Assembly (NCBI GenBank): GCA_947166355.1
Contig: CAMVDX010000003.1
Coordinates: 1 to 64,000, forward strand
DNA length: 64,000 bases
Source of the DNA: an uncultured Treponema sp.
GTDB taxonomy: Bacteria > Spirochaetota > Spirochaetia > Treponematales > Treponemataceae
Reading direction: 5' to 3'
Below the pieces are notes generated by a model, which had not been told where the DNA came from, ran no database searches, and saw nothing but the letters and a program-made list of their open reading frames with translations. Below, piece after piece: positions 27 to 22,219 of the stretch. The first letter of the stretch is position 1. Each line of letters starts with the position of its first letter. The translations under genes and the position numbers were made by a program.

Positions 27-1772
27 TTATTTGGATGCTGCATCAATAATCTTCTTGATATCAGCTGAGATTCCGTCACAAAGTACGCCTGCTTTTTTCT
101 TTGCATCAGCGAACCATGCATCTGAACCATCACCTGCAGGAATCATAGAGTTGATGTAGAATTTGATTTTTGGTTCGGTTCCAGAAGGACGTGCACTTAC
201 GATTGTTCCGCTTTCAAGATAGAACTGAAGTACGTTGCTCTTTGGAAGGTCCGGGTCGCACATAAGGTCGCGAACCTTTACAACCTTTTCACCGCCAAGA
301 CTTGCCGGAGGATTACTTCTCATGTTAGCCATCATAGCCTTCATAGTTTCTCCACCAGAAGCACCAGGGAAGTTCTGAGAAATTGCGCGGTCTTCAAAGT
401 AGCCGAACTCTTTATACATATCATCAAGGTGCTCGAGCAGGCTCTTACCCTGACTTCTCCAGTAAAGAATCATTTCTGCACACATAGCGGCAGCAGAAAC
501 GCCGTCTTTATCCATTACTTCCTTTTCAACCTTGTAGCCGTAGCTCTCTTCGAGACCGAATACATAATTGTGTGAACCGTCCTTTTCAAAGGCAGCTTCT
601 TTAGCGGCAATCCACTTAAAGCCTGTAAGACAGTCGAGCATTGCAACATTGTATTTTTTACAGATATAGTCACCGAATGGAGAGGTTACGATAGAGCGGA
701 TGATTGCAGGATTTGCCGGCATAGTTCCAAGTTCTGTTCGTGAGCGGAGAACATAGTCAATAAGAAGGGCTCCCATCTGGTTTCCGCTGAGGAGTACGAA
801 GTTTCCGTCCTTGTCCGGGAAGGCTGTACCAAAGCGGTCTGCATCAGGGTCAGTAGCCATTACACCGTCTGCCTTTTCTTTCTTTGCAAGTTCAACTGCA
901 AGAGTAAGGGCTGGTTTTTCTTCTGGATTTGGCTTTTCAACAGTAGGGAAGTTTCCGTCTGGTTTTCTCTGTTCTGGAACAGTAATGATGTTAAGTCCGA
1001 GGTCCCCAAGAACTTTTTCAACATGCATAGCACCAGTTCCGTGGAGTGGTGTGTAAACAATGCGAACATCCTTTGCCTTTTCCTTAATAAGATCAGGTCG
1101 GAAGAGCTGAGCTTTACACATAGCCCAGAATGGTTCATCAATTTCTTTGTCGATAATTACAAGCTTACCAGATTTGATAGCCTCGTCGCGAGACATAGAC
1201 TTTACTTCTGTAACCTTGTTTACTTCTTCAATAATTCCAACATCATGAGGCTCGATTACCTGAGCACCGTCATCCCAGTAAGCCTTGTAACCGTTGTACA
1301 TTCTTGGGTTATGTGATGCTGTAACAACAACACCGGTCTGAGCTTTAAGGGTACGGATTGCAAAAGACAATTCTGGAGTAGGGCGGAGACCTGAGAAAAG
1401 GTATGCCTTAATTCCGTTAGCGGCAAAAATGAGGGCTGTAGCTTCTGCAAAAACATCTGAGTTCAGGCGGCTGTCATAAGCAACAACTGCGCTCAAAGTG
1501 CCGGCTTTTGCCTTGTCCGGGAATGCCTTAAGAACATAGTTTGCAAGTCCCTGGGTTGCCATATTGATTTCGAGGGTGTTCATGCGGTTTGTTCCGCCAC
1601 CCATAATTCCGCGGAGTCCACCAGTTCCAAATTCGAGAGTCTGATAGAAGCGGTCTTCAAGTTCCTTATAATCTTCTTTAGCAATAAGTTCTTCAACTTC
1701 CTTGCTGAATCTTTCATCTTTTTCTGCGGCAATGTATGCTTTTGCACGCTTTAAGATTTCTTCTTTTTCCAT
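27..1772 (-). CDS. Phosphohexomutase (phosphoglucomutase/phosphomannomutase family)
   Basis: Alpha-D-phosphohexomutase that interconverts hexose 1- and 6-phosphates in the cytoplasm, feeding glycolysis and sugar-nucleotide synthesis. The catalytic phosphoserine motif TASHNP is near residues 151-156 (Ser153), the metal-binding loop DPDADR near 308-313, a sugar-recognition GLEESYG loop near 405, and the phosphate-binding RPSGTEPK loop near 540. At 581 residues it fits the long PgcA-like bacterial subgroup. AGGAGC lies five bases before the ATG. A second, divergent phosphohexomutase lies immediately upstream on the same strand, separated by a large palindrome. Substrate (glucose or mannose phosphate) cannot be decided from the motifs. 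Confidence 0.93.
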   Translation of the reverse strand: MEKEEILKRAKAYIAAEKDERFSKEVEELIAKEDYKELEDRFYQTLEFGTGGLRGIMGGGTNRMNTLEINMATQGLANYVLKAFPDKAKAGTLSAVVAYDSRLNSDVFAEATALIFAANGIKAYLFSGLRPTPELSFAIRTLKAQTGVVVTASHNPRMYNGYKAYWDDGAQVIEPHDVGIIEEVNKVTEVKSMSRDEAIKSGKLVIIDKEIDEPFWAMCKAQLFRPDLIKEKAKDVRIVYTPLHGTGAMHVEKVLGDLGLNIITVPEQRKPDGNFPTVEKPNPEEKPALTLAVELAKKEKADGVMATDPDADRFGTAFPDKDGNFVLLSGNQMGALLIDYVLRSRTELGTMPANPAIIRSIVTSPFGDYICKKYNVAMLDCLTGFKWIAAKEAAFEKDGSHNYVFGLEESYGYKVEKEVMDKDGVSAAAMCAEMILYWRSQGKSLLEHLDDMYKEFGYFEDRAISQNFPGASGGETMKAMMANMRSNPPASLGGEKVVKVRDLMCDPDLPKSNVLQFYLESGTIVSARPSGTEPKIKFYINSMIPAGDGSDAWFADAKKKAGVLCDGISADIKKIIDAASK

Positions 1773-1820
1773 TTATAGCTCCTGTATTGAATTATTATAC
1801 AAATTTATTTATTTTTTGTC

Positions 1821-1939
1821 ATAGTGGTTTCGATACGTAAGGTGCTTTAACACCTTACTACTCAACCACCCGAAATCTTCCTAACGTCCGGTGGTTGAGT
1901 AGTACGGTGCTGACGCACCTATCGTATCGAAACCACTAT
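1821..1939. repeat. Large palindromic element between the two phosphohexomutase genes
   Basis: Perfect 17-bp outer arms (1821-1837 and 1923-1939, atagtggtttcgatacg and its complement) enclose nested inverted pairs: a small hairpin around taaggtgctttaacacctta and a second pair containing ctcaaccacc / ggtggttgag. There is no open reading frame. It is probably a dispersed structured intergenic repeat. It could form a cruciform in DNA, or a long hairpin in a transcript reading through from the upstream phosphohexomutase. Confidence 0.85.
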
Positions 1940-3703
1940 TTATTTGTCTGCTTTCTTAATAAGCTCAGTTTCCCACTCAAGCAGTGCCTTTTCCATATCA
2001 GGCTTGTTGCCCTTTACGTCGCACATGATACGGAAAACAGGCTCGGTTCCGCTTCCACGCATCCAGATAAAGGCAACAGGCTTTGAATCCTTATCTTTGA
2101 AAATGATTTTTAAGCCGCCTTTTTGGGATTCTGAAAAGTCTTTTACACCGCGGGTTTCAACAGTTCCCTTTGTGATAACTGCTTCCCAAGTTTCAATGTC
2201 GTATTTATTTTTGAGGTCTGAAGCTTTTTTCTTCCAGTCTGCCTCAAAAGCCTTCTGGAAATTAGCCTTGAGCTTTGCATGGTCTGTAGTTTTTACCTTA
2301 AGAACTGCACGCGGTTCTGAAACTCCTGTAGTTGTATATACCGGCAGAGATGCAATTACATCAGTCAGTGTAAAATCAGGATTATATTTCTGACCGGATT
2401 TTGTGCACCACATTTCGTAGAGGCCGCTTTCTCTCATCATCAAAAGCTTGAGAAGGGCAAAGATTGTATTTAGCGGGTCGCGGACTGCTGCAGGGTAGGT
2501 AATTGTTCCACCGTTTGAGCCTTCTCCAAGAATGCGAATTGTATAGCCTTGCTGTCGTTTTTCGCGGGCAAGGTTTACGACATTTGCTTCGCCAACTTCG
2601 GCACGGAAAACTTCTGCGCCAAGGGCTGAAGCAATTTCGTTTATACGCATAGAGGTAGGGCAGTTTACAGCAACAGCAGGCTTAAAATCTTTTTCGTCAC
2701 TATGCTGCCAGATTGAATATGTAAGTTCTGCAAGGACTGAAAGACTGAATACTTCCTGTGCCTTAAGAATTACAGCCTTGCCGGCTTTTTCATCCCAGTA
2801 TACGATGTTTCCACGGTCGCCATCGCAATCCGGCATATAACCGAGGACAACTTCTGAGTGGCCTTCCTTATGAAGCTTTTCCATTTCCGCAGCTACGTGA
2901 ACAAGATTTTCTGCTTCAGGAATAATTTCATGGGCAATTTCAAATTCATTTATTGAATAAAAGTTGATTTTGCGTTCTTTGAAGTAATCTCTGTCTATGC
3001 TCTGATATCGTGAGCTTCCGTTAAAATCACAGACAACACCAAGCGGATTTTGCGCAATAAAGGTGTCCAGCATTCCGAAAAAATCGGTCTGGTACTCTTT
3101 ATTGTCCGTGCCGGTTATAGTCTCATTAATAAAGTTGCGGTAAGCATAAAGGGCGTTGTGTTTAGAACTGTCTTTAATATCATAAACCTGCTTGAGCTCA
3201 GAAGTAGTGCAGGTAAATGCCTTTTTTACGGCAGCTTCAACGCCCTCATCATCAGAAAGCCGTTCCGTAAAATCTTTTACAAGCTTAGCGTTTTCAGTTC
3301 CACTTAAAACACCACCATCATTAATTCCGAATTTTATACCATTATGACCGATAGGATTATGACTTGCCGAAATATAAATAAAACCGTCAAGTTTTTTGGC
3401 ATAAGCCATAATTTCTGGAGCAGCAGTTACTCCGCTGTACTGGATAATTGCACCTTTTTTTATAAGGGCATGAATCATTGCATCGGCAATTGCAGGGCCT
3501 GTAGGACGTGCATCAATGCCAAGCGCAATTACAGGGGCAGCCTGATTTGTAAGCGCTGAAAGATAATCAAAGAATACATCTGCGGCAATTACAGCAAGTT
3601 TTTTATCATTGTCATTAATCTGTGGATTTCTGTCCTGCTCATCGCCGGAAGCAGCAAATACTTTACGCCAGCCGGAAGCTGACAAAATCATATTGTGTTC
3701 CAA
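1940..3703 (-). CDS. Phosphohexomutase paralogue (phosphomannomutase/phosphoglucomutase type)
   Basis: Second alpha-D-phosphohexomutase, 587 residues and clearly divergent from its neighbour. It has the phosphoserine motif ISASHNP (Ser114), a metal loop MPDCDGDR around residue 290 and the C-terminal phosphate loop MRGSGTEP near 556. The start is a TTG: GGGAG lies six bases upstream of it, while the first ATG, four codons in, would be too far from that ribosome site. A sigma-70-like promoter precedes it (3733-3761). Exact substrate is unknown; phosphomannomutase or phosphoglucomutase are the obvious options. Confidence 0.9.
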   Translation of the reverse strand: MEHNMILSASGWRKVFAASGDEQDRNPQINDNDKKLAVIAADVFFDYLSALTNQAAPVIALGIDARPTGPAIADAMIHALIKKGAIIQYSGVTAAPEIMAYAKKLDGFIYISASHNPIGHNGIKFGINDGGVLSGTENAKLVKDFTERLSDDEGVEAAVKKAFTCTTSELKQVYDIKDSSKHNALYAYRNFINETITGTDNKEYQTDFFGMLDTFIAQNPLGVVCDFNGSSRYQSIDRDYFKERKINFYSINEFEIAHEIIPEAENLVHVAAEMEKLHKEGHSEVVLGYMPDCDGDRGNIVYWDEKAGKAVILKAQEVFSLSVLAELTYSIWQHSDEKDFKPAVAVNCPTSMRINEIASALGAEVFRAEVGEANVVNLAREKRQQGYTIRILGEGSNGGTITYPAAVRDPLNTIFALLKLLMMRESGLYEMWCTKSGQKYNPDFTLTDVIASLPVYTTTGVSEPRAVLKVKTTDHAKLKANFQKAFEADWKKKASDLKNKYDIETWEAVITKGTVETRGVKDFSESQKGGLKIIFKDKDSKPVAFIWMRGSGTEPVFRIMCDVKGNKPDMEKALLEWETELIKKADK

Positions 3704-3732
3704 GTTTTACTCCCATTAAACTTAATTATATT

Positions 3733-3761
3733 ATTTTAACACGAAATTCTGTATTTAACAA
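3733..3761 (-). promoter_or_regulatory. Predicted sigma-70 promoter of the second phosphohexomutase
   Basis: Read on the minus strand: TTGTTA (3756-3761), 17-bp spacer, TAAAAT (3733-3738). It places the start of transcription about 24 bases before the TTG start codon. Confidence 0.6.
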
Positions 3762-3809
3762 ATATAATATGGAAAATATGAATAAGTTGGAAATCTGGGG
3801 ATTGTAAAT

Positions 3810-4002
3810 GATTTATGTAATATTGGTACGAGGGAGCAGGGCGTGGGGCAAAAACACTCTTTTTGTGGCTGCCGCGGAAGCGGCAGGTGTAATAGTTTCT
3901 ATACCACAAAAAGCGTGTAGCGCATTATTGCGCGGTTTTGTACCACGAAGCCGCGACCGGAAGCCATGTTTTCACAAATTAGTTTTATAATGCGGAAGCC
4001 CT
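3810..4002. repeat. Structured ~195 bp dispersed repeat, copy A
   Basis: Almost the same sequence recurs at 6060-6251 in the same orientation, with only scattered substitutions. Internally it is palindromic: stretches such as ctctttttgtgg / ccacaaaaag and cgcattattgcg can pair. It ends in ttttataatgcggaagccct (3983-4002). The short open frame through it is not supported as a gene because copy B does not keep it. Copies A and B bracket the two envelope genes at 4026-5973. Confidence 0.85.
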
Positions 4003-4025
4003 GAATAAGTTAAGAGTCTTACAAT

Positions 4026-4895
4026 TTATTTAATTATAATACTGTAATTAAGCTGTTTTACGTTGCCGAGAAAATCTGTAATTACAAGACCTAGTGTTGC
4101 GCGTCCAGGAGTAAACATCGCCTCTCCAATCAGCTGAAGGTTTTCTTCTGGGAAAACATCATTACTTGTATATTTCTTTTTGCCGATTATACAAAGCTTG
4201 TTATTTTCCTGAGTTATTGTGTCATAAGAAATCTGATCAACGATTAAGCCATTTATGGAAATAGAAGTTTTATAAGGAGCCGCTATAGCATTTCGCTTAA
4301 AATATACTTTATAAAGGCCGGAATTAAAGGTTTTGTAGGTGTTAATATCATAGAAATCTTTATTCTTACTTTGAATTATAATTCCTGAAAGTGAAAGAGG
4401 AATTTCCGATTCTGAACGCGGCATAAGAACCTTTGGATTTATTGCAGATTTATTCTTGGCATCAACAATCTGGAATTCCAGATTTCCATTATTATTCTGA
4501 TAGCCCGAATTGCCGCTTTGACCTAATATAGCTCCTGCTTCAATTGTTTTTTCAGTTTCATTTAAGGAAAGACTGTCTTTATCAATATTTCCATAAACCG
4601 AAAGAAGATTATCATCATGTGCAAGAATTACGGCAGTTCCAAGTGTAGATGGAAAAAACTCAGAATCATCATTATTTTCCGTAAGTATTGCCAGAATATA
4701 GCCGTCTTCTGCTGCCTTGATTTCGGCAGGTTCAGAAAAAATAACTGAAGTACTAAGAATATTACCGCGATTTTGTCCAAAGTAAGAAGTAAAGGAATCT
4801 TTTGTTACTTCGTCCTGCGGCCAGTCAAAAGCAGCTGTCTGGAAAATCAGAAAAATTGAAACAAAAAGTAATGCAAATATTTTAATTTTTTTCAT
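4026..4895 (-). CDS. Exported LytM/M23-like domain protein, probably catalytically dead
   Basis: 289-residue exported protein with an N-terminal signal peptide (about residues 1-22). Residues ~30-150 follow the fold pattern of M23 (LytM) peptidases, including LGTAVILAHDDNLLSVYGNI and GAILGQSGNSG. The zinc ligands are missing: the first His/Asp pair is not visible and the final HxH strand reads LEFQIVD. The rest may be a beta-rich C-terminal domain. Such degenerate LytM proteins usually regulate amidases or bind peptidoglycan; that role is an inference here. AGGAT precedes the ATG. It lies 13 bp downstream of the beta-propeller gene, so the two are likely cotranscribed. Confidence 0.7.
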   Translation of the reverse strand: MKKIKIFALLFVSIFLIFQTAAFDWPQDEVTKDSFTSYFGQNRGNILSTSVIFSEPAEIKAAEDGYILAILTENNDDSEFFPSTLGTAVILAHDDNLLSVYGNIDKDSLSLNETEKTIEAGAILGQSGNSGYQNNNGNLEFQIVDAKNKSAINPKVLMPRSESEIPLSLSGIIIQSKNKDFYDINTYKTFNSGLYKVYFKRNAIAAPYKTSISINGLIVDQISYDTITQENNKLCIIGKKKYTSNDVFPEENLQLIGEAMFTPGRATLGLVITDFLGNVKQLNYSIIIK

Positions 4896-4908
4896 ATTAA
4901 ATCCTATG

Positions 4909-5973
4909 TTATTCTTTGCTGACTGTTAATCTTGAAATTGTGTTGTCTTTTCCAAGGTAAATATCATTTCCTATTGCGTGAACAAAAGCAGATTCTGCTG
5001 TAAATGAAAAAGAACCTTCCTGGGTATTTGTGTCATCAATTATAGTAAGAGTGTAATTCGTTTTGTCTTTTCCAAGAAGAATGACAAAGTTCTCTGTTTC
5101 TTCTACAGAAATAATCTTATCTTTTATAGCAATTGTTTTTTCTGTTTTATTATCAATATCATAAACTCCCAGCCCCTCATAAAAATTATAGAAGATTCTT
5201 TTCCCATCATTGCAGAAATGAACCACTGTACGGTATGGAGAATCATGTTCAAAGAATTTATGATAGACGATTTTCTGCTGGTTTTCTTCGCGATGAGAGA
5301 GTACAAATCTTTGCTGATTATGACCTGAAATTGAGGCAATGTACTGACCGTCGTCAGAAATATCAAGTCCCAGAATTATAGGATAATCGCTTCCACCCGG
5401 AGCAAAATCTATAAGTGTATTGCCGGTTTCGTTATCAAGGACTTTTATAGTACCGTTTGCAAAGCCGATTGCAGTATAGTTTTTCTTGGCGGCAAAGGCT
5501 GTTATAGGAAGCGTTCCTTCAAAAGTCCATAAAATCTTTCCAGTTTCTGAACATTTTGAAAAAGAACAGCCTCCCGGAAGAAATACATAAATTAAGTCGT
5601 CTACAAAATATGGAAAACCACTTGCTTCTATCACGCCAGCTTTTTCACCATTGTTATGGAAGAATTCAGTGTTTTGAGCTTCTGAATCATAGGTTGCAAA
5701 GTAATAATCTGAAATTGAAACCTTAGACGGAAAGGTTTTGTAAACAGAAATATTTCCGTCTTCATCAAAATAACCGAGAGTTTGTCCCAGATGAAAGAAT
5801 TGACGCTTTTTATCCTGTGGAATTTCTTTTATTGCAGGATTTGAAGTGTTGATTTTCCATACTGGAGTAAACTGATATTCATAAGAAAGCGGCTTTACCG
5901 CAAGTAATATATAGATAATTGATATTAAAATGCCAAGGAAGATAAACAACCCGATGTATTTCTTAATTTTCAT
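4909..5973 (-). CDS. Membrane-anchored beta-propeller (WD40/PQQ-like) protein, function unknown
   Basis: 354 residues with one N-terminal hydrophobic segment (about 7-27), likely a signal anchor. The remainder shows repeated short beta-strand blades, for example GKILWTFEG and IKVLDNETGNTLIDFAPGG, typical of WD40/quinoprotein-like propellers. I recognise no catalytic motif. It is probably periplasmic and acts in protein-protein contacts. It is the first gene of a two-gene unit with the degenerate LytM protein, and a repeat copy lies on each side of the pair. Confidence 0.65.
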   Translation of the reverse strand: MKIKKYIGLFIFLGILISIIYILLAVKPLSYEYQFTPVWKINTSNPAIKEIPQDKKRQFFHLGQTLGYFDEDGNISVYKTFPSKVSISDYYFATYDSEAQNTEFFHNNGEKAGVIEASGFPYFVDDLIYVFLPGGCSFSKCSETGKILWTFEGTLPITAFAAKKNYTAIGFANGTIKVLDNETGNTLIDFAPGGSDYPIILGLDISDDGQYIASISGHNQQRFVLSHREENQQKIVYHKFFEHDSPYRTVVHFCNDGKRIFYNFYEGLGVYDIDNKTEKTIAIKDKIISVEETENFVILLGKDKTNYTLTIIDDTNTQEGSFSFTAESAFVHAIGNDIYLGKDNTISRLTVSKE

Positions 5974-6038
5974 AATTTTATAATATCCGATAAGAGGTAT
6001 TTTTTCAATTCATTACATGCTTAACAGGGGAGCCGCAC

Positions 6039-6251
6039 AGGGATTCCGCATTATAAAAGATTTACGTAATCTTGGCGCGAGGGAGCGGGGCGTGGTACAA
6101 AAACACTCTTTTTGTGGCTGCCGCGTAAGCGGCAGGTGTAATAGTTTCTATACCACAAAAAGCGTGTAGCGCATTATTGCGCGGTTTTGTACCACGAAGC
6201 CGTGACCGGAAGCCATGTTTTCAGAATTTTATTTTATAATGCGGAAGCCCT
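6039..6251. repeat. Structured ~195 bp dispersed repeat, copy B, with terminal inverted repeats
   Basis: 6060-6251 matches copy A (3810-4002). This copy also carries terminal inverted repeats: 6039-6058 (agggattccgcattataaaa) pairs with 6232-6251 with one mismatch. Inside, ggtacaaaaac pairs with gttttgtacc, so the whole element can fold into one long branched hairpin. It fills most of the gene-free stretch 5974-6362. This could be a miniature mobile element; no transposase is present here. Confidence 0.85.
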
Positions 6252-6281
6252 GGACATTCATTGCATGCTTGATGCTTCCTA

Positions 6282-6310
6282 TTGACAAAATACCGTAAAG
6301 TATGCAAAAT
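6282..6310 (+). promoter_or_regulatory. Predicted sigma-70 promoter of the HTH-EIIA gene
   Basis: TTGACA (6282-6287), 17-bp spacer, CAAAAT (6305-6310), about 50 bases before the preferred ATG. Confidence 0.5.
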
Positions 6311-6362
6311 ATTCTAAAGATTTCAAACAAAATTGAATAAAAGTTTAACAAAGGGGTTTCAG

Positions 6363-7010
6363 ATGGAAGACGATATCCTTACTATTGAAGAAGTAGCAAA
6401 GTATCTTCGTGTATCAGACAGAACTGTTTATGATTGGGCTCAGAAGGGCGAGATTCCTGCCGGTAAAATCGGTACGGTCTGGCGTTTTAAGAAATCTGAG
6501 GTAGAAAACTGGGTAAATGCGCGTCTTTCTTCTGATGCAGCAAAGCCTGCCGAAATTCAGGTTCAGGTAAGAAACATTCTTTCACCGGATCGTGTTGTAT
6601 TTATTTCTCAGACTTCAAAGCATGATGCTCTTGTAGAACTTGCAGATGTTCTTGCAACTGCTCCTCAGGTAAAGGATGGTCAGGAACTTATTCAGGAAAT
6701 CCTTAAGCGTGAAGAACTTATGTCTACAGCAATCGGTCGTGGAGTTGCAATTCCTCACGTACGCCTTTCTTCTGTTACAGACCTTGTAATGGCAGTTGGA
6801 GTATGCCGTAAACCAGTTGCTGATTATCAGACAATTGATGATCAGCCTGTAAATCTTCTCTTTATGATTGCAGCAGCTTATAATCAGCATTCATATTATC
6901 TAAAAACTATTTCACACTTCAGTGCTAAGTTTAAGGATAAGGATTTGCGTGATGCTATGCTGGGCTCACTGAACGAAAAAGAAGTTTATGATCTTTTGAT
7001 GAAGGCATAA
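6363..7010 (+). CDS. MerR/excisionase-type HTH fused to PTS EIIA (nitrogen/fructose type)
   Basis: 215-residue cytoplasmic protein. Residues 5-53 are an excisionase-type DNA-binding helix-turn-helix (TIEEVAKYLRVSDRTVYDWA, then WRFKKSEVENW). Residues ~70-215 are a phosphotransferase EIIA domain, with the expected phospho-accepting histidine in the motif AIPHVRL (His132). The pairing suggests that phosphorylation through HPr tunes DNA binding. No sugar-specific EIIB or EIIC is nearby, which favours a regulatory EIIA-Ntr-like role. The start at 6363 is preferred over an upstream in-frame start because AAAGGGG sits just before it. Confidence 0.88.
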   Translation: MEDDILTIEEVAKYLRVSDRTVYDWAQKGEIPAGKIGTVWRFKKSEVENWVNARLSSDAAKPAEIQVQVRNILSPDRVVFISQTSKHDALVELADVLATAPQVKDGQELIQEILKREELMSTAIGRGVAIPHVRLSSVTDLVMAVGVCRKPVADYQTIDDQPVNLLFMIAAAYNQHSYYLKTISHFSAKFKDKDLRDAMLGSLNEKEVYDLLMKA

Positions 7011-7069
7011 AAAGCAGCTTATATAAATACAGGGAATACAATCAGTTTTAAATGTTGTTTTCTCACGTA

Positions 7070-7119
7070 AAAAAATCCCTCAACCAACGTAAATGATGTT
7101 GTTTGAGGGATTTTTTTAT
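7070..7119. terminator. Bidirectional rho-independent terminator
   Basis: Stem aatccctcaaccaac / gttgtttgagggatt with one mismatch, flanked by A and T runs on both sides. It lies between two convergent genes and can serve both. Confidence 0.88.
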
Positions 7120-7173
7120 TCCGAAAAAGACATGAAGAGGTCAGTATTTTTTCTGTCTTTTTTTATCTGAGTT

Positions 7174-8361
7174 CTATTCATTGAAAGATACGGGAATCCA
7201 TTTTGTTCTGTCTGCGTGGTCGGCGGCGATGGTACCCCAGGTTACTTTGGCGGTGGTTTCGCCCATCAGATATTCACGGCCGTTTTCCATTGTAAATGTC
7301 TGTCCTGGAGCCGGAATATCTGTTACTACCATTGCATGTGAATAATCCCTCGAAATTAAAATTGCAGTATCAATACCTGTATAATTTAAGAGAACGCTTA
7401 CAAGCATGCTGCGGCTGTCACAGTCGTTTCCTTTTCCCTTTATTGCAGCCGGAAGACTCGTAAAATCTGATTCATTTTTAGTTTCAGCGCGGTTATAACT
7501 GAAGTTTTGTACCCAGCTTAAAAGAGCCTGAGCGTATTTTATATCAGCATCCTGGGAGTATTGAGCTTTCAATTCATAATATAGTTCATTGTAAATATCC
7601 TGCGAAACCTGTTTAAGACGCCCAGAGTTATCTCGATATATCATCCTGTAATAACGCTTCCAGGCTTCTTTCCAGAGCTTGTGATTTGCGTAAAGTTTTA
7701 AAACTGCATATTCAAGATCTATTGTAAATTTTGCGGCTTCTTCATCAACTTTGTCTATGGAAGTTGAAATTTGTTTTCCGCCAATATTAAGGATTACAGA
7801 ATCTTTTCCTTCTGGTGGAAAAGCATAGCTTGTAATAATTCCCGGGGTTTGAAGATATTTATTATCCAGACAAAGTGAATTGAGTGTAGAAATAATAAAC
7901 TGTTCACAGCCAGGTTTTGAGCTTGGAGCATAACACAAAAGGAGAATAAAATAGTCTTCAATTATCAAAGGTGCTGTAACTCCCCAGCCAAAATATTCGT
8001 CGTCAAGTGTCATTGTAAAATTACTGATACCACAGTTCTTTTTATTCCAGAAAAAAGAATCTGTATTTCCTTTTGCTCCAAGCTTTGTAAGATTATCCTG
8101 TAGCACTTTTGGAGCTGAATAAGTTGTCGGATCATTACAGATTTTCATGACGAGAGTAACAGGAATGTTTGGATGAGAAAAAATATATGACATTCCATCC
8201 TCAGTGTAATCAGCAACTTCAAAACCTTCTGGAATATCAAGGGAAAAGGAAAAGTCACGGTCGGTTATTTTTTCACAGAATGCGCGGGCGGTAAAAAAGA
8301 GTGCAAACAAAAAAATGATTAGTCGGCGAATCGTGTTTTGTTTCCTTGAAAATCTTGTCAT
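7174..8361 (-). CDS. Exported transglutaminase-like (papain-fold) protein
   Basis: 395 residues with an N-terminal signal sequence (about residues 8-29, ending FFTARAFC). The C-terminal part resembles the transglutaminase-like superfamily: Cys314 in KGNDCDSRSMLVSVLL, His342 in DYSHAMVV, and Glu368 in GETT as a possible third triad residue. Bacterial members act as cysteine proteases or peptide-bond enzymes of the envelope; the substrate here is unknown. The first ~200 residues are beta-rich and unrecognised. It is divergent from the RluA gene, whose -35 box overlaps the first codons of this one. Confidence 0.72.
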   Translation of the reverse strand: MTRFSRKQNTIRRLIIFLFALFFTARAFCEKITDRDFSFSLDIPEGFEVADYTEDGMSYIFSHPNIPVTLVMKICNDPTTYSAPKVLQDNLTKLGAKGNTDSFFWNKKNCGISNFTMTLDDEYFGWGVTAPLIIEDYFILLLCYAPSSKPGCEQFIISTLNSLCLDNKYLQTPGIITSYAFPPEGKDSVILNIGGKQISTSIDKVDEEAAKFTIDLEYAVLKLYANHKLWKEAWKRYYRMIYRDNSGRLKQVSQDIYNELYYELKAQYSQDADIKYAQALLSWVQNFSYNRAETKNESDFTSLPAAIKGKGNDCDSRSMLVSVLLNYTGIDTAILISRDYSHAMVVTDIPAPGQTFTMENGREYLMGETTAKVTWGTIAADHADRTKWIPVSFNE

Positions 8362-8383
8362 TTTATAAAGCCTCCGTTATTAT
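8355..8383 (+). promoter_or_regulatory. Predicted promoter of the RluA-family gene
   Basis: TTGTCA (8355-8360), 17-bp spacer, TATTAT (8378-8383). The predicted transcript start near 8390 leaves only about six bases before the ATG and no Shine-Dalgarno sequence, so the mRNA is nearly leaderless. Confidence 0.5.
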
Positions 8384-8395
8384 TATCGGTATATT

Positions 8396-9037
8396 ATGAT
8401 TCCTGTTATATATGAGAATAACGAAATATTTATTATAGATAAACCTGCAGGACTTGCAGTGCAGGGGGGGCAGGGAGTAGTACATTCTGTAGATTCTGAT
8501 TTTGCCAAACAGACAGGGCAGAAGGTTTACCTTGTTCATCGCCTTGATAAAGATACTTCAGGTCTTATGATTGTTGCAAAGAATTCTACAGCAGCAGGTA
8601 AATGGACAAAAATCATTGGTTCAAAAATTGCACGTAAGGAATACCTGGCCTTATGTGCTGGACGCTTAAATCCGAAAAACGGTGTTATAAAAGAAAATAT
8701 TGTTCAGCACGGCGAAGAAAAATCTGCAGTAACTCATTATTCTGTTGAAAAAGAATGGAATGTGACTTATGAAGGAGAAAATGGCGTGGAAGAAATTCCT
8801 TTGTCATTAATCAGGCTTCAACTGGAAACAGGCCGCATGCATCAGATTCGCATTCATCTTGCCAAAAATGGCTGCCCGATTGCTGGTGATGACCAGCATG
8901 GAAATTTTAAGCTGAACAAACTGCTAAAAAAAGTCTGCAAAATAAAAAGATTGCAGCTGGCGGCTGTAAGACTAACAATTCCCCTTGAGGGAAAAGAAAG
9001 AGTGTTTGAAGTAAAAGAACCGTTTCAAATTTTATAA
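8396..9037 (+). CDS. RluA-family RNA pseudouridine synthase
   Basis: Converts uridine to pseudouridine in rRNA or tRNA. At 213 residues it is a short RluA-family enzyme without an N-terminal S4 domain. The catalytic motif HRLDKDTSG is at residues 49-57, with Asp51 as nucleophile. The family's second conserved block follows as ETGRMHQIRIHLAKNGCPIAGDDQHG. The target site cannot be inferred. Confidence 0.92.
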   Translation: MIPVIYENNEIFIIDKPAGLAVQGGQGVVHSVDSDFAKQTGQKVYLVHRLDKDTSGLMIVAKNSTAAGKWTKIIGSKIARKEYLALCAGRLNPKNGVIKENIVQHGEEKSAVTHYSVEKEWNVTYEGENGVEEIPLSLIRLQLETGRMHQIRIHLAKNGCPIAGDDQHGNFKLNKLLKKVCKIKRLQLAAVRLTIPLEGKERVFEVKEPFQIL

Positions 9038-18015: not shown

Positions 18016-18021
18016 ATGTTT

Positions 18022-18990
18022 ATGATAAAAGCACAAATTACAGATAAAGAGCTTACTGCTCACTTAGATAAAATTGAAGCCGATCAGCTTCGCATTTTTA
18101 CAATGGCTGATGGTCGTATCCGCGGAGCACTTTTTCACGGAACAAGATTTGTAAACCAGATGAGAGCACAGCACAATTTGGGAATTCTCGAAACCTATAT
18201 TCTGGGGCAGGCCAGCCTTTGCGGTGCCCTTACAATTCCTATGATGAAGGGTATGGAGCATACCCTGATTCGTTTTGAAGGTACAGGTCCTGCTGATGGA
18301 TACACTGTAGAAGCTGATTCAACCGGTTATGTAAGAAGCTACCTTGAAAACGAACATATTCCTATTGAAAAACCTTTAGAAAACTGGAACTTAAAGCCAT
18401 TTCTTGGACATGGAAATATTACTTTTTCACGCATTCATAAAGATGATAAATATCCTCAGTCTTCTACAGTAGACGTAGACGGTGAAAATATTGCAATAGA
18501 TTTTGCATCTTATTTTGCCCAGAGCGAACAGATTAACACTGCCTTTAATTCAAGCATTCAGTTTGATAAGGCGGGTAGGGTAATAGGAGCCGGTGCAATG
18601 TACATTCAGATTATGCCAAAGACCGGTGGTACTGCAGAACTCGGTTCTCAGGTAGACAGTCATGCCGAAGAAGATGCTGATGAAGAAGATTTATTACGCC
18701 GTGTAGAAAACGCCTTCCGAGCCTGCCCGAGCATAGGTCAGCTTTACAGCGAAGGAGAAGTTGATTCTGAAGATATTATTCTGGGACTTTTCAGAGAATT
18801 TAATCCTATAATTACAATGAAACGTGATATAGTTTTTGACTGCCCATGCAGTAAGGAATACTACATAGAACACATAAGAGGTCTCCCGGCAAAAGACCTT
18901 GAAGATATCAGAAAGAACGGCCCCGACCCTCTGGAAGTTGTGTGTCGTAAATGCGGCTCTGTTTACCACATTCCGGTAAGCGAGATCTAA
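18022..18990 (+). CDS. hslO: Hsp33 redox-regulated chaperone
   Basis: Cytoplasmic holdase chaperone switched on by oxidation. 322 residues from the ATG at 18022; an ATG two codons earlier (18016) lies inside the -10 region and is less likely. The C-terminal zinc centre is intact: Cys274 and Cys276 (CPC) with Cys308 and Cys311 (CRKC). The N-terminal domain shows the family's [13 protein letters not shown]-type stretch. There is no Shine-Dalgarno sequence; the promoter geometry predicts a leaderless mRNA. Confidence 0.93.
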
Positions 18991-18998
18991 GAAGAATG

Positions 18999-19113
18999 GA
19001 TTGCGGCTTGATAATGCATTTCAAGCCGCAAAACGAGTGAGTCAAGGCTTTAAGCGAAAGCGTGCCTTGACCACTCGTATTGCCACGTCGCCCTACGGGC
19101 TCCTCGCAATGAC
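18999..19113. repeat. Hairpins and dispersed repeat units downstream of hslO
   Basis: Three units in a row. A perfect 9-bp hairpin (gcggcttga / tcaagccgc, 19004-19030). A longer palindrome (19033-19079) containing gtcaaggc / gccttgac, which recurs at 19391-19436. Then 19078-19113, a unit with ctcctcgcaatgacg that is nearly the reverse complement of 62049-62082. No gene is seen. Confidence 0.75.
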
Positions 19114-19359: not shown

Positions 19360-19437
19360 AAGGTTGATAATTATTTTATCAACCTTGAAAACGACTGAGT
19401 CAAGGCTTTAAGCAAAGCGTGCCTTGACCAGGCGTAT
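19360..19437 (+). repeat. Hairpin and repeat unit in the tmRNA 5' leader
   Basis: A perfect 11-bp hairpin (aaggttgataa / ttatcaacctt, 19360-19386) is followed by a second copy (19391-19436) of the gtcaaggc / gccttgac palindrome found at 19033-19079. Both lie between the predicted promoter and the mature tmRNA 5' end. Confidence 0.7.
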
Positions 19438-19450
19438 TCATATATCGTAA

Positions 19451-19832
19451 GGGGGTGTCCCGGTTTCGACGGAATTGGGAAATCTTGTACTGCAGGTAGG
19501 GGTGAAGGTCCCTTAAACTGACGACAAAATAACTGCAATTTTCGCAAGAAAAGAAGAAGAAGCTGATGAGGCTTCTTTCGAAGCAGAAGCACTCGCTGCG
19601 TAAGTAGCCGTGCAGGAACTCAGGTGGCCCTGTTCCGCGTTGCCTGATGTTCTTTTACCTTATCGGGACTTGCTGTGCATTGTGTCTGGTCTTTGCACGG
19701 GACTTTTAATCAGAATACGGAGGCGACGCTTGTTATGCTGCTACCGGCTCCCGACAACCACCTCGCATAACTAAACTTGTAGATGTACCTGGTTTACTTT
19801 TTCGGACGGGAGTTCAATTCTCCCCACCTCCA
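19451..19832 (+). ncRNA. ssrA: Transfer-messenger RNA (tmRNA)
   Basis: Rescues stalled ribosomes and tags the nascent protein for proteolysis. The tRNA-like ends pair as GGGGGTG (19451-19457) with CACCTCC (19825-19831), discriminator A at 19832, CCA not encoded. The T arm reads GGGAG TTCAATT CTCCC and the 5' part has GGTTTCGACGG. A tag frame runs to TAA at 19601-19603 and ends FEAEALAA. If the resume codon is GCA at 19535 the tag has 22 residues and begins AIFARK. If it is GCA at 19544 the tag has 19. Both are longer and more acidic than usual. Confidence 0.97.
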
Positions 19833-19834
19833 GT

Positions 19835-19866
19835 AAAAGCTTCGTGGAAACACGAAGCTTTTTTTA
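19835..19866 (+). terminator. tmRNA terminator
   Basis: Perfect stem aaaagcttcgtg / cacgaagctttt with loop gaaa and a T run, two bases after the tmRNA 3' end. Confidence 0.92.
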
Positions 19867-19880
19867 TGTACTGTGTTATG

Positions 19881-20024
19881 GGAGAATTGAACTCCGCGGA
19901 GTGAGCGCCGAGCGAATAGCGAGGAAAAGGCGCCATGGATGGCGCCGGAAGCGAACGTAGACGGGGTGGAGGGATAAAACAGGATGTTTTAGCCCGTAGC
20001 CCAGTTCAATTCTCCCCACCTCCA
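19881..20024 (+). repeat. Insert ending in a direct copy of the tmRNA 3' end
   Basis: 20003-20024 repeats the last 22 bases of tmRNA (19811-19832) at an offset of exactly 192 bp. Near the other end, 19881-19893 (ggagaattgaact) is an inverted copy of the tmRNA T arm. Between them lie palindromic repeat units (ggcgccatggatggcgcc, 19930-19947). A related unit recurs at 20111-20165. The rest of tmRNA is not duplicated, so this is not a second gene. Confidence 0.88.
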
Positions 20025-20064
20025 AATAAAAAATGACTTTGCTTAACAAAGTCATTTTTTATTT
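20024..20064 (+). terminator. Second terminator, behind the tmRNA 3'-end copy
   Basis: Perfect 18-bp stem (aaataaaaaatgactttg and its complement) with a five-base loop and T-rich tail. It follows the duplicated tmRNA end just as the first terminator follows the real one, but the stem sequence differs. Confidence 0.85.
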
Positions 20065-20065
20065 A

Positions 20066-20170
20066 ACTAGTTTTTGCTTTGCAAAAACTAGCTTGTGAAC
20101 TATTAATTTCTCCGCGGAGTGAGCGCTGAGCGAATAGCGAGGAATAGGCGCCAGGGATGGCGCCGACCGT
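20066..20170. repeat. Hairpin plus second copy of the tmRNA-linked repeat unit
   Basis: Contains ctagtttttgctttgcaaaaactag (split hairpin, 20066-20091) and, at 20111-20165, a near copy of 19895-19950: gcggagtgagcgc, gagcgaatagcgagga and ggcgcca-ggatggcgcc in the same order. No gene is seen in 20065-20224. Confidence 0.75.
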
Positions 20171-20224
20171 ATTTGTGCGCCTTTCCGCTATCATTTACGG
20201 AGACTGACAGAGGGTTACTTTATT

Positions 20225-22219
20225 TTAAACTAATTTTTTTAGAATTATATAAGTAATATCATCATTAAAATTATCAGTGCCTGAGAATTTTTCAAGAGCA
20301 GCGGGAAGCGCATTTACCTGAGATTCAACATTTTTCCAGATATTTTCCTTAAATACTGATAAAACTCCATCTACACCAAAATATTGTTTTTCTGAATTTG
20401 TACATTCCGTAATTCCATCAGTATAAAGTACAAGCTCATCGCCTTTATTCATATTAAACTTTACAGTTTCAAAATTTATAGGAAAGTCTGGAATTCCAAT
20501 TGCGCCAAACTGATTTATACCTTCCTGCTCAATTGGAGCAACTTCACCTGCCTGTGACTTATATAAAATCGCCTTAGGATGTCCTGCATTTACAAGTTCA
20601 TAATTATCTTTATTAAAGCGAATCAGCATACCTGTAAGGTAGTTTTCAATACTTCCTTTTTCGGTAATGATTCTGTCATTAATTTTAGTCATTACTTCAT
20701 TCAAAGGCTTTTTAATACCTTTACGAAATTCCTGTTCAATTATATTTTTTACGAGCATTGTAACAAGTCCCGAAGCAATTCCATGACCCGAGATATCAAA
20801 AATACCAATACCGTCAAGTTTATTTTCAGACATAAAGACAATATATAAGTCTCCGGAAACTCCTGCCATTGCCTTAAATGCAATGTTTAGTTCCCAATCC
20901 TTTAATTCACTTGTATCAATTTTATAAAAACTCTTTTGAACAAAGCCTGCAAGTTCTATTTCCTGTAAAGCTCTGTCTTTTTCTTTTTCCAGAGCATCAG
21001 TTCTGTCAGAAACAAGCTGTTCAAGGTTTTTGTTCATGTATTCAACTTTATTTGCAAGATTTACAAATCGTATAATAAGCATGCTGAGAAAAAGAAAGAT
21101 AACGATAATCCAGCTGCTGGCAAGCATAAGAGAATTTACATTTTTCTTAAAACATAAATAAGCTATCGCCTGAACTAGCAGTGAAAAATATATCGGTACA
21201 AAGCCAAGAATAAAATGAAGAATCTTTTTTTCTTTATTCTTTATTGATATAACGAATATTTTAATAGGGAAAATGAAAAGAATTATCATTATAATAAAGC
21301 CAATACGAAGAAGTTTTCTTGTAATAACAATATCTGAGCCCATGAACATAAGCCCTACGGCAAATACAGTCATTGCAAGGCGAAAAGCTTTACCAAATGT
21401 TTTTTCTTTATAACCGAGAAAATCTCTTGTAAAATTAATGATACAATAGCAGGTGAATAGAGGAGCCGCACCATTAAAAACTTTTTCGAATAAAAGAAAC
21501 GAATACTTATTTTTGTAAATTACTGAATATTCACCTATGTAAAAAACAAGAAGGTAAAAAGCCGTTGAAAGACAGAGAACCGCAAAAGACAAATTTTCTT
21601 TTTCAGATCTGCGTAATACATAAAGGAAAAAATATATAAGGAAAACAATTAAAAGTACGACTGAAAAAATCATGTAAATCTTTGAATTTACAAGATTGTC
21701 AAATTCAGCCTTATGAACTATATCTTCATAATCAGAAAAGAAAGGAACAGATCTGATTGTTCCATAATCATGACACCATATACATATAGTAATAGTATTT
21801 GTTCCAGAAAAGTTTATATAATCTTTTGGAACTTTATAATATGAAGAACGTTCACCTTCTGTAAACTCATGAGGTGGGAAAAAACCTGACTGACCGATAA
21901 GATTATCGTTAATATAGACTTTTGACGCAATTTTAAGGCGTCCGACAAAAAGACCGAAATCTTTATGCTTATAAGCTTGAGGAAGCGTAAAGTTCTTTTT
22001 CAAAAAAATATAGCCGGTACGATTTTCAAGCAGCGAAGAAAGATGAGTTAAATCATCATTAGGTAAATCATAAAATTCTGCAGGTCCACCGACATCTGAA
22101 TATTTCCAGCCGGAAGTAAGATATACACGATTATTCAGAATATTAGAATTTTCTTTACATGAAAAAAGAAAACAAGAGAAGAAAATAAATATTGATAAAA
22201 AAAGGACTCTGTTTTTCAA
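20225..22219 (-). CDS. Membrane sensor with SpoIIE-type PP2C phosphatase
   Basis: 664 residues. The N-terminus looks like a lipoprotein or signal sequence (FLFSCKEN around residue 20). Residues ~30-160 form an extracytoplasmic beta-rich sensor of the 7TMR-DISM type, followed by seven membrane helices (about 180-390), a short coiled coil, and a SpoIIE-like PP2C phosphatase (~430-664; GDLYIVFM, FDISGHGIASGL, LYTDGITE). It should dephosphorylate a STAS protein in response to an outside signal; the STAS gene is two genes upstream. TTG is the start, with GGGG four bases before it. Last gene of the signalling operon. Confidence 0.85.
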   Translation of the reverse strand: MKNRVLFLSIFIFFSCFLFSCKENSNILNNRVYLTSGWKYSDVGGPAEFYDLPNDDLTHLSSLLENRTGYIFLKKNFTLPQAYKHKDFGLFVGRLKIASKVYINDNLIGQSGFFPPHEFTEGERSSYYKVPKDYINFSGTNTITICIWCHDYGTIRSVPFFSDYEDIVHKAEFDNLVNSKIYMIFSVVLLIVFLIYFFLYVLRRSEKENLSFAVLCLSTAFYLLVFYIGEYSVIYKNKYSFLLFEKVFNGAAPLFTCYCIINFTRDFLGYKEKTFGKAFRLAMTVFAVGLMFMGSDIVITRKLLRIGFIIMIILFIFPIKIFVISIKNKEKKILHFILGFVPIYFSLLVQAIAYLCFKKNVNSLMLASSWIIVIFLFLSMLIIRFVNLANKVEYMNKNLEQLVSDRTDALEKEKDRALQEIELAGFVQKSFYKIDTSELKDWELNIAFKAMAGVSGDLYIVFMSENKLDGIGIFDISGHGIASGLVTMLVKNIIEQEFRKGIKKPLNEVMTKINDRIITEKGSIENYLTGMLIRFNKDNYELVNAGHPKAILYKSQAGEVAPIEQEGINQFGAIGIPDFPINFETVKFNMNKGDELVLYTDGITECTNSEKQYFGVDGVLSVFKENIWKNVESQVNALPAALEKFSGTDNFNDDITYIILKKLV

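Follow-up and report, generated by a model that had tools for sequence, protein, structure and literature searches.

Bacterial mobile DNA lands mainly at transfer RNA (tRNA) and tmRNA genes, and the T loop is one of the sub-locations within a tRNA gene at which islands integrate. With its 7-bp loop between inverted repeats, the T arm is by nature a site for recombinases. Genomic islands use this T arm of tRNA genes (PMC4383910). Recombination through a folded single strand is described for the phage CTXphi, whose attP(+) recombines with dif through host XerCD: two opposite copies of the target, about 90 bp apart, form a forked hairpin that recreates the target stem, and the product holds one intact target and two non-functional copies (PMC3089051). 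In integrons the conserved fold of attC acts as single-stranded DNA, and the members of an array, all in the same orientation, follow a fixed double-stranded site (PMC4792948). Closest in appearance to the locus described here are the long-puzzling repeats at E. coli tyrT and tyrV (RtT; RF00391), which lie behind tRNA-Tyr in tandem 178-bp units with an inverted 22-nt copy of the T arm (86%), a GA-rich structured core and a 25-nt direct copy of the 3' end, and which are annotated as an sRNA processed from the tyrT transcript (PMC4986893).

We analysed a stretch of 64,000 nucleotides from an uncultured Treponema (the window), in which the 3' end of the tmRNA gene is duplicated behind the gene. 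We conclude with high confidence, as regards both family and fold, that this duplication is one copy of a widespread family of repeats of about 140 bases that lie behind tRNA and tmRNA genes in many phyla. The family is previously unannotated. We class it as a variant of the little-understood RtT-type repeats, and not as a member of RtT, attC, CTXphi or REP; it has a broader range than we found described for such repeats, a new core family and a DNA-level signature.

The tmRNA locus

The tmRNA gene of the window and the unit behind it consist of the following parts:

19451..19832, plus strand: tmRNA gene (ssrA), the target gene (ARAGORN; Rfam RF00023, 126.9 bits)
19808-19824, plus strand: T arm of the tmRNA, whose 3' end is 19811-19832
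19835..19867, plus strand: terminator 1 (intrinsic) in the gap between gene and unit, a 12-bp perfect inverted repeat and a T run
19880..19895, minus strand: left arm of the unit, an inverted T-arm copy of 16 nt, 100% complementary to 19809-19824
19897..19963, plus strand: 5' domain of the core, a three-way fold with tandem G.A motifs and the hairpin GGCGCC-ATGGAT-GGCGCC, supported by covariation
19964..20002, plus strand: 3' domain of the core, a long hairpin with an AGGA loop and a GGA/GGA internal loop, supported by covariation and the covariance model
20003..20024, plus strand: right arm of the unit, a direct copy of the tmRNA 3' end, 22/22 identical to 19811-19832
20024..20064, plus strand: terminator 2 (intrinsic), an 18-bp perfect inverted repeat
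20110..20214, plus strand: decayed second core, 95% identity over 56 nt, 40.1 bits to the covariance model (match 20115-20214)

The initial annotation of this DNA had reported that the last 22 bases of the tmRNA recur downstream and are followed by a second perfect terminator, and both statements are correct: the two copies are exact and 192 nt apart, and the stem at 20024-20064 is perfect over 18 bp. The inverted T-arm copy that had been placed at 19881-19893 is present and slightly longer (19880-19895), and in the predicted fold it pairs with 20003-20016 of the direct copy. The recurring "palindromic unit" turned out to be the 5' half of the core, since 19892-19947 appears again at 20110-20165 with 95% identity; this decayed second core keeps its 5' half up to 20165 and lacks the 3' half and the arms. 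Terminator 1 is a perfect 12-bp stem (19835-19862) followed by T7.

Against R1, a covariance model of the core built from 33 units of which the window sequence is itself one, the window core scores 116.5 bits (E 2.9e-23). Within the window the 22-nt 3'-end repeat has no further copy at up to 3 mismatches, and the core does not recur elsewhere (0.00 expected by shuffling in both cases). Open reading frames of at least 80 aa are absent from 19833-20224, the space between the tmRNA and the convergent gene ending at 20225.

Some further features of the neighbourhood are recorded here. Upstream of the tmRNA stand two near-identical copies of a hairpin repeat, GAGTCAAGGCTTTAAGC(G)AAAGCGTGCCTTGACCA, at 19038-19078 and 19396-19436. 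The Rfam TD-2 RNA has a sub-threshold match (36.5 vs 48.7 bits) on the minus strand at 20021-20120, which covers terminator 2 and the next hairpin. The window gene at 18016-18990, upstream of the tmRNA, sits convergently downstream of the tmRNA in the genomes G003 and G006, so the ssrA neighbourhood has undergone rearrangement.

Distribution across genomes

The initial annotation had proposed aligning ssrA loci, and had stated that absence of the arrangement from all related genomes would mark a one-off rearrangement. The same insert lies behind ssrA in G003, at 94% identity and with different terminators, and is found in many congeners; its presence behind ssrA of related genomes rules out a one-off event, and the arrangement reaches well beyond a local ssrA curiosity. 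In G002 and G015 the tmRNA gene leads straight into a single terminator with no insert directly behind it; G015 has the downstream gene in common with the window.

Matches to the window insert were found by blastn in 87 of 196 congeners, and R1 found the core in 140 of these 196 Treponema genomes, with up to 12 copies each, and in 72 of 116 genomes across the order, including other families. A pattern scan of GTDB, rescored with R1, recovered units in MAGs labelled Deltaproteobacteria, Omnitrophota, Elusimicrobia, Armatimonadetes, Firestonebacteria, Deferribacteraceae and Clostridia. These cross-phylum units lie nearly all immediately behind a tRNA or tmRNA gene, with 1-11 copies in each of 14 genomes, and in the phylum of one Omnitrophota match the Treponema-derived R1 matches 9 of 58 genomes. 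Since the search pattern was itself derived from Treponema, this taxonomic list is a lower bound.

Rfam gave no match over the core at gathering score, searches of open-access papers returned nothing on such a repeat family, and phage, plasmid and viral collections held no true match to the core. Matches of a 24-base pattern in viral contigs were discarded as chance, having unrelated flanks, no tRNA and no support from the covariance model.

Position and locally matched arms

A unit opens with a stretch of the local gene in inverted orientation, copied from about T54, continues with a conserved folded core of about 105 nt and closes with a direct copy of the gene from about C56 to its 3' end. 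Units lie on the strand of the gene and are often arranged in tandem, each repeat then having its own terminator. A tRNA or tmRNA gene on the same strand was present upstream, within the fetched locus, for 115 of 126 Treponema units, and the other 11 were at contig ends, behind tRNA fragments, next to a tRNA-Ala-like gene that is disrupted, or behind an island that had entered a tRNA. The distance from gene end to core is usually 65-86 nt, and in arrays multiples of a repeat are added. Besides tmRNA, the host genes include at least 11 tRNA isotypes (Met, Pro, Glu, Ala, Thr, Gln, Arg, Asn, Gly, Ser, Leu).

The arms follow the sequence of the gene beside which they lie. For 79 units next to a gene, drawn from a non-random sample of the best covariance-model matches and ten near-complete genomes, the inverted arm matches the local gene over a mean of 12.3 nt, compared with 5.9 nt when genes are permuted (permuted maximum 6.8), and the direct copy over 18.0 nt compared with 6.0 (permuted maximum 7.3); none of 2000 gene permutations came close to the observed values. 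Breakpoints cluster, with the T loop as the mode: in 50 of 105 units the first base of the direct copy corresponds to tRNA position 56, and in 46 of 101 the inverted copy extends to T54.

A tRNA-Ala-like gene at 1311-1448 of locus L005 (genome G000, contig C1, near 260.8 kb) has its anticodon arm replaced by an insertion of about 65 nt with a long hairpin; it scores 42.5 bits to the tRNA model and has a decayed unit behind it.

Core fold and DNA-like pairing

The core fold is strongly supported. In an alignment of 33 units (A2), with a structure of 29 pairs, standard pairs fill 93.7% of cells and 135 cells show double changes, compared with 37.8 in shuffles; all fold measures collapse when the partner is slid by one column. 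The helices are broken by tandem G.A and GGA/GGA motifs, with GA/GA at columns 7-8/57-58 in 32 of 33 units. With its arms, the window unit has a folding z of about -4.8 both as RNA and as DNA, and its complementary strand one of -4.15.

RNA helices under selection normally tolerate G-U pairs. Across 113 distinct units the core pairs include 2.0% G-U and 1.1% A-C, with a ratio of one-sided to double changes of 0.076, whereas tmRNA of the same genus, treated by the same method, gave 11.2% G-U, 0.5% A-C and a ratio of 0.405, and tRNA stems 8.1% G-U and 0.3% A-C. Mixed cross-phylum cores had 2.6% G-U and 1.0% A-C. The terminators of the same loci showed 8.3% G-U, and cores put through the same folding 3.3%. 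Because G-U is this rare in the core relative to the tmRNA, tRNA and terminator controls, selection seems to act on the fold in its DNA form and not on an RNA. The selected strand is most likely the tRNA-sense strand, as it is this strand that holds the G.A motifs.

Array dynamics

The number of units differs between relatives: the array behind tRNA-Ser(CGA) has 1, 1 and 3 units in G134, G147 and G157, with core identities of 96-98%. For 61 of 121 cores the nearest core lies at the same gene in another genome, the usual situation, so that much of the descent is vertical. For 11 cores the nearest one is in the same genome behind another tRNA, where 2.2 are expected; in G078, for example, the tRNA-Pro and tRNA-Ala cores are 91% identical, while arms and terminators are local to each gene. 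Arrays end cleanly in a direct copy in 55 of 74 cases, and the other 19 end in a truncated unit that has the inverted arm and the 5' part of the core; the window, too, ends in a truncated further unit. A single-unit locus closely related to a two-unit array still contains a core remnant.

Comparison with described systems

The Treponema units share with RtT the position behind a tRNA gene, the inverted T-arm copy, the structured core, the 3'-end copy and the tandem repetition. The sequences themselves differ: R1 gives 6.6 bits (E 0.59) on the RtT core, and the Rfam RtT model, with which the three E. coli copies score 121-134 bits, has no match at E <= 5 in the loci L037, L049 and L160. By these searches the two cores are not recognisable as homologous. 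RtT is moreover described as an RNA from the tyrT transcript, whereas the present family sits behind many tRNA genes in many phyla and has DNA-like pairing.

As in CTXphi, inverted target-like arms flank about 90-110 nt in a predicted forked hairpin; here, however, the target is the tRNA T arm and not dif, there is no phage genome or cargo, and no ORF of at least 80 aa lies in the unit. The single orientation of the arrays is reminiscent of attC, and the conserved core may, like attC, act as folded single-stranded DNA, as its pairing statistics point to DNA. Unlike attC, the units lack the GTTRRRY/RYYYAAC boxes, their arms being the T-arm sequences GTTCAAT / ATTGAAC with C or G at the purine/pyrimidine position, and they have neither genes nor an association with integron integrases. 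Islands inserted in tRNA genes by tyrosine integrases also duplicate the gene from the T loop to the 3' end, but the present unit is only about 190 bp, has no integrase in cis, and carries an inverted arm and a common folded core. With REP/RAYT sequences and the end hairpins of IS200/IS605 it shares the form of short extragenic folded DNA with a guide-like arm beside a hairpin; in contrast to them it has no constant foot, is tied to tRNA genes and shows no association with Y1 transposases.

Proposed mechanism and alternatives

We tentatively favour, with somewhat less than even confidence, the reading that the insert belongs to a family of cargo-free units which are directed to the 3' ends of tRNA and tmRNA genes, act as folded DNA and move by strand exchange at the T loop. 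Single-strand recombination is the favoured mechanism by analogy, because the geometry is that of CTXphi attP, attC acts single-stranded and the T arm suits recombinases. When the tRNA-sense strand becomes single, pairing of the arms would give a branched hairpin whose base reproduces the T-arm site in double-stranded form. A trans-acting recombinase would then exchange one strand at the T loop of a tRNA gene, between T55 and C56, and replication would complete the insertion. The gene would remain intact and be followed by two non-functional copies, one inverted and one direct, just as happens with CTXphi at dif and with integron cassettes at attI. Arrays could arise from repeated events or from unequal exchange.

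All units seen are without cargo. Y1 transposases were present in 46 of 140 element-positive and 15 of 56 negative genomes (p = 0.50), and integron integrases above the cut-off in 44 of 140 and 13 of 56 (p = 0.30), the window genome being below the cut-off; with no association across these 196 genomes, both were rejected as drivers. A host enzyme such as XerCD would show no such correlation. Some observations fit the proposal less well: the apparently moved cores of G078 (tRNA-Pro and tRNA-Ala) adjoin local terminators, which simple insertion of a circle at T55/C56 would not give; the truncated array ends fit tandem duplication and decay too; and comparison of empty and filled loci yielded no perfectly clean pair, as the single-unit relative keeps its core remnant.

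A serious rival, if in our judgement a rather unlikely one, combines slippage with a host function: the units would not be mobile at all, being repeats that the host maintains or tolerates and that change by slippage or unequal exchange, with the fold serving as a DNA structure of the host (e.g. a cruciform by heavily transcribed tRNA genes) or promoting the slippage. The variable unit numbers of tandem arrays among relatives, the truncated last units, the lack of an associated enzyme, and the vertical descent suggested by highly identical nearest neighbours at the same gene of other genomes are all in keeping with it. Yet a single core is found at tmRNA and at no fewer than 11 tRNA types, each time between new arms of local sequence, and nearest neighbours behind another tRNA of the same genome are five-fold over chance; slippage cannot relocate a core. 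It is improbable, in turn, that the units function as RNA, that is, as a structured read-through transcript on the model of RtT, whose antisense arm would bind the T arm of the gene or of its downstream copy. The fold is strong also as RNA, and RtT, which has the same architecture, carries an sRNA annotation. The initial annotation had likewise suggested that the inverted piece, if transcribed, could pair with either T arm. This complementarity does exist and is maintained in nearly all units, and in the predicted fold the inverted arm pairs with the downstream copy and so closes the element; an RNA role is doubtful because a strong terminator usually separates gene from unit and because the core pairs are almost never G-U, in contrast to three RNA controls from the same genomes. 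Nor does the core match any Rfam RNA family. A CsrA/RsmA sponge, considered for the CANGGANG loop, was set aside, as the units come after terminators and their pairing statistics do not resemble those of RNA.

The units might instead be remnants of islands, each the attL/attR scar of an island at a tRNA 3' end or an accumulated decoy att site. Their direct copies do run from the T loop to the gene end, as with tyrosine-integrase islands in tDNA (Islander, PMC4383910), and islands do enter the same genes, as at tRNA-Ala of G136 with a 44-bp att. But unrelated islands would not leave scars with one and the same covarying core in different phyla, the units are without an integrase, and the G136 island, which sits between gene and unit and has its own attR, is thus distinct from the unit. 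We regard this already disfavoured reading as very unlikely. An autonomous island carrying the core was also rejected, since G136, the sole fully mapped case, has its own 44-bp att repeat before the unit. This 8.7-kb island (L166, contig C13 of G136, 130-9005) encodes a putative integrase, lies in tRNA-Ala before an older unit, and has a 44-bp repeat that starts in the anticodon stem; the remaining 20-kb stretches (L165, L167-L169) were screened for tRNAs and ORFs only.

Returning to movement as folded DNA, a wider version of the proposal is possible, though doubtful: the family may represent a class of minimal mobile DNA, found across phyla, which travels in folded single-stranded form and for which the T arm of tRNA and tmRNA genes serves as universal attachment site. 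Such a system would resemble an integron with the tRNA gene as its platform and with units that lack genes, and the E. coli RtT repeats would be a remnant of it. Located exactly at the 3' ends of tRNA and tmRNA genes in many phyla, tracking the sequence of the host gene and seemingly selected as folded DNA, the units would be a new kind of genetic element. This would explain the tyrT repeats, would complicate the annotation of islands and of "RtT sRNAs" at tRNA loci, and makes single-strand recombination, as in integrons and CTXphi, testable at tRNA genes generally.

Other cores between the arms

Some arrays mix other structured cores between the same pair of arms; behind tRNA-Ala of G107 the order is A, B, B, A. 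In the tRNA-Ala array of G107 (L160) and the tRNA-Pro array of G078 (L155), tRNA-derived arms enclose a second structured core (..CCTAAAAC-hairpin-GTTTTTTAACGG..), and the same motif also occurs near tRNA genes outside arms. A third core was seen at tRNA-Met of G146 (L049). As second and third cores are found there, the slot between the arms can take more than one core. In the tmRNA unit of G134 (L142) the core is interrupted, at about 742-832 of the query, by a repeat of about 85 bp that is both dispersed and tandem in G147 and G157.
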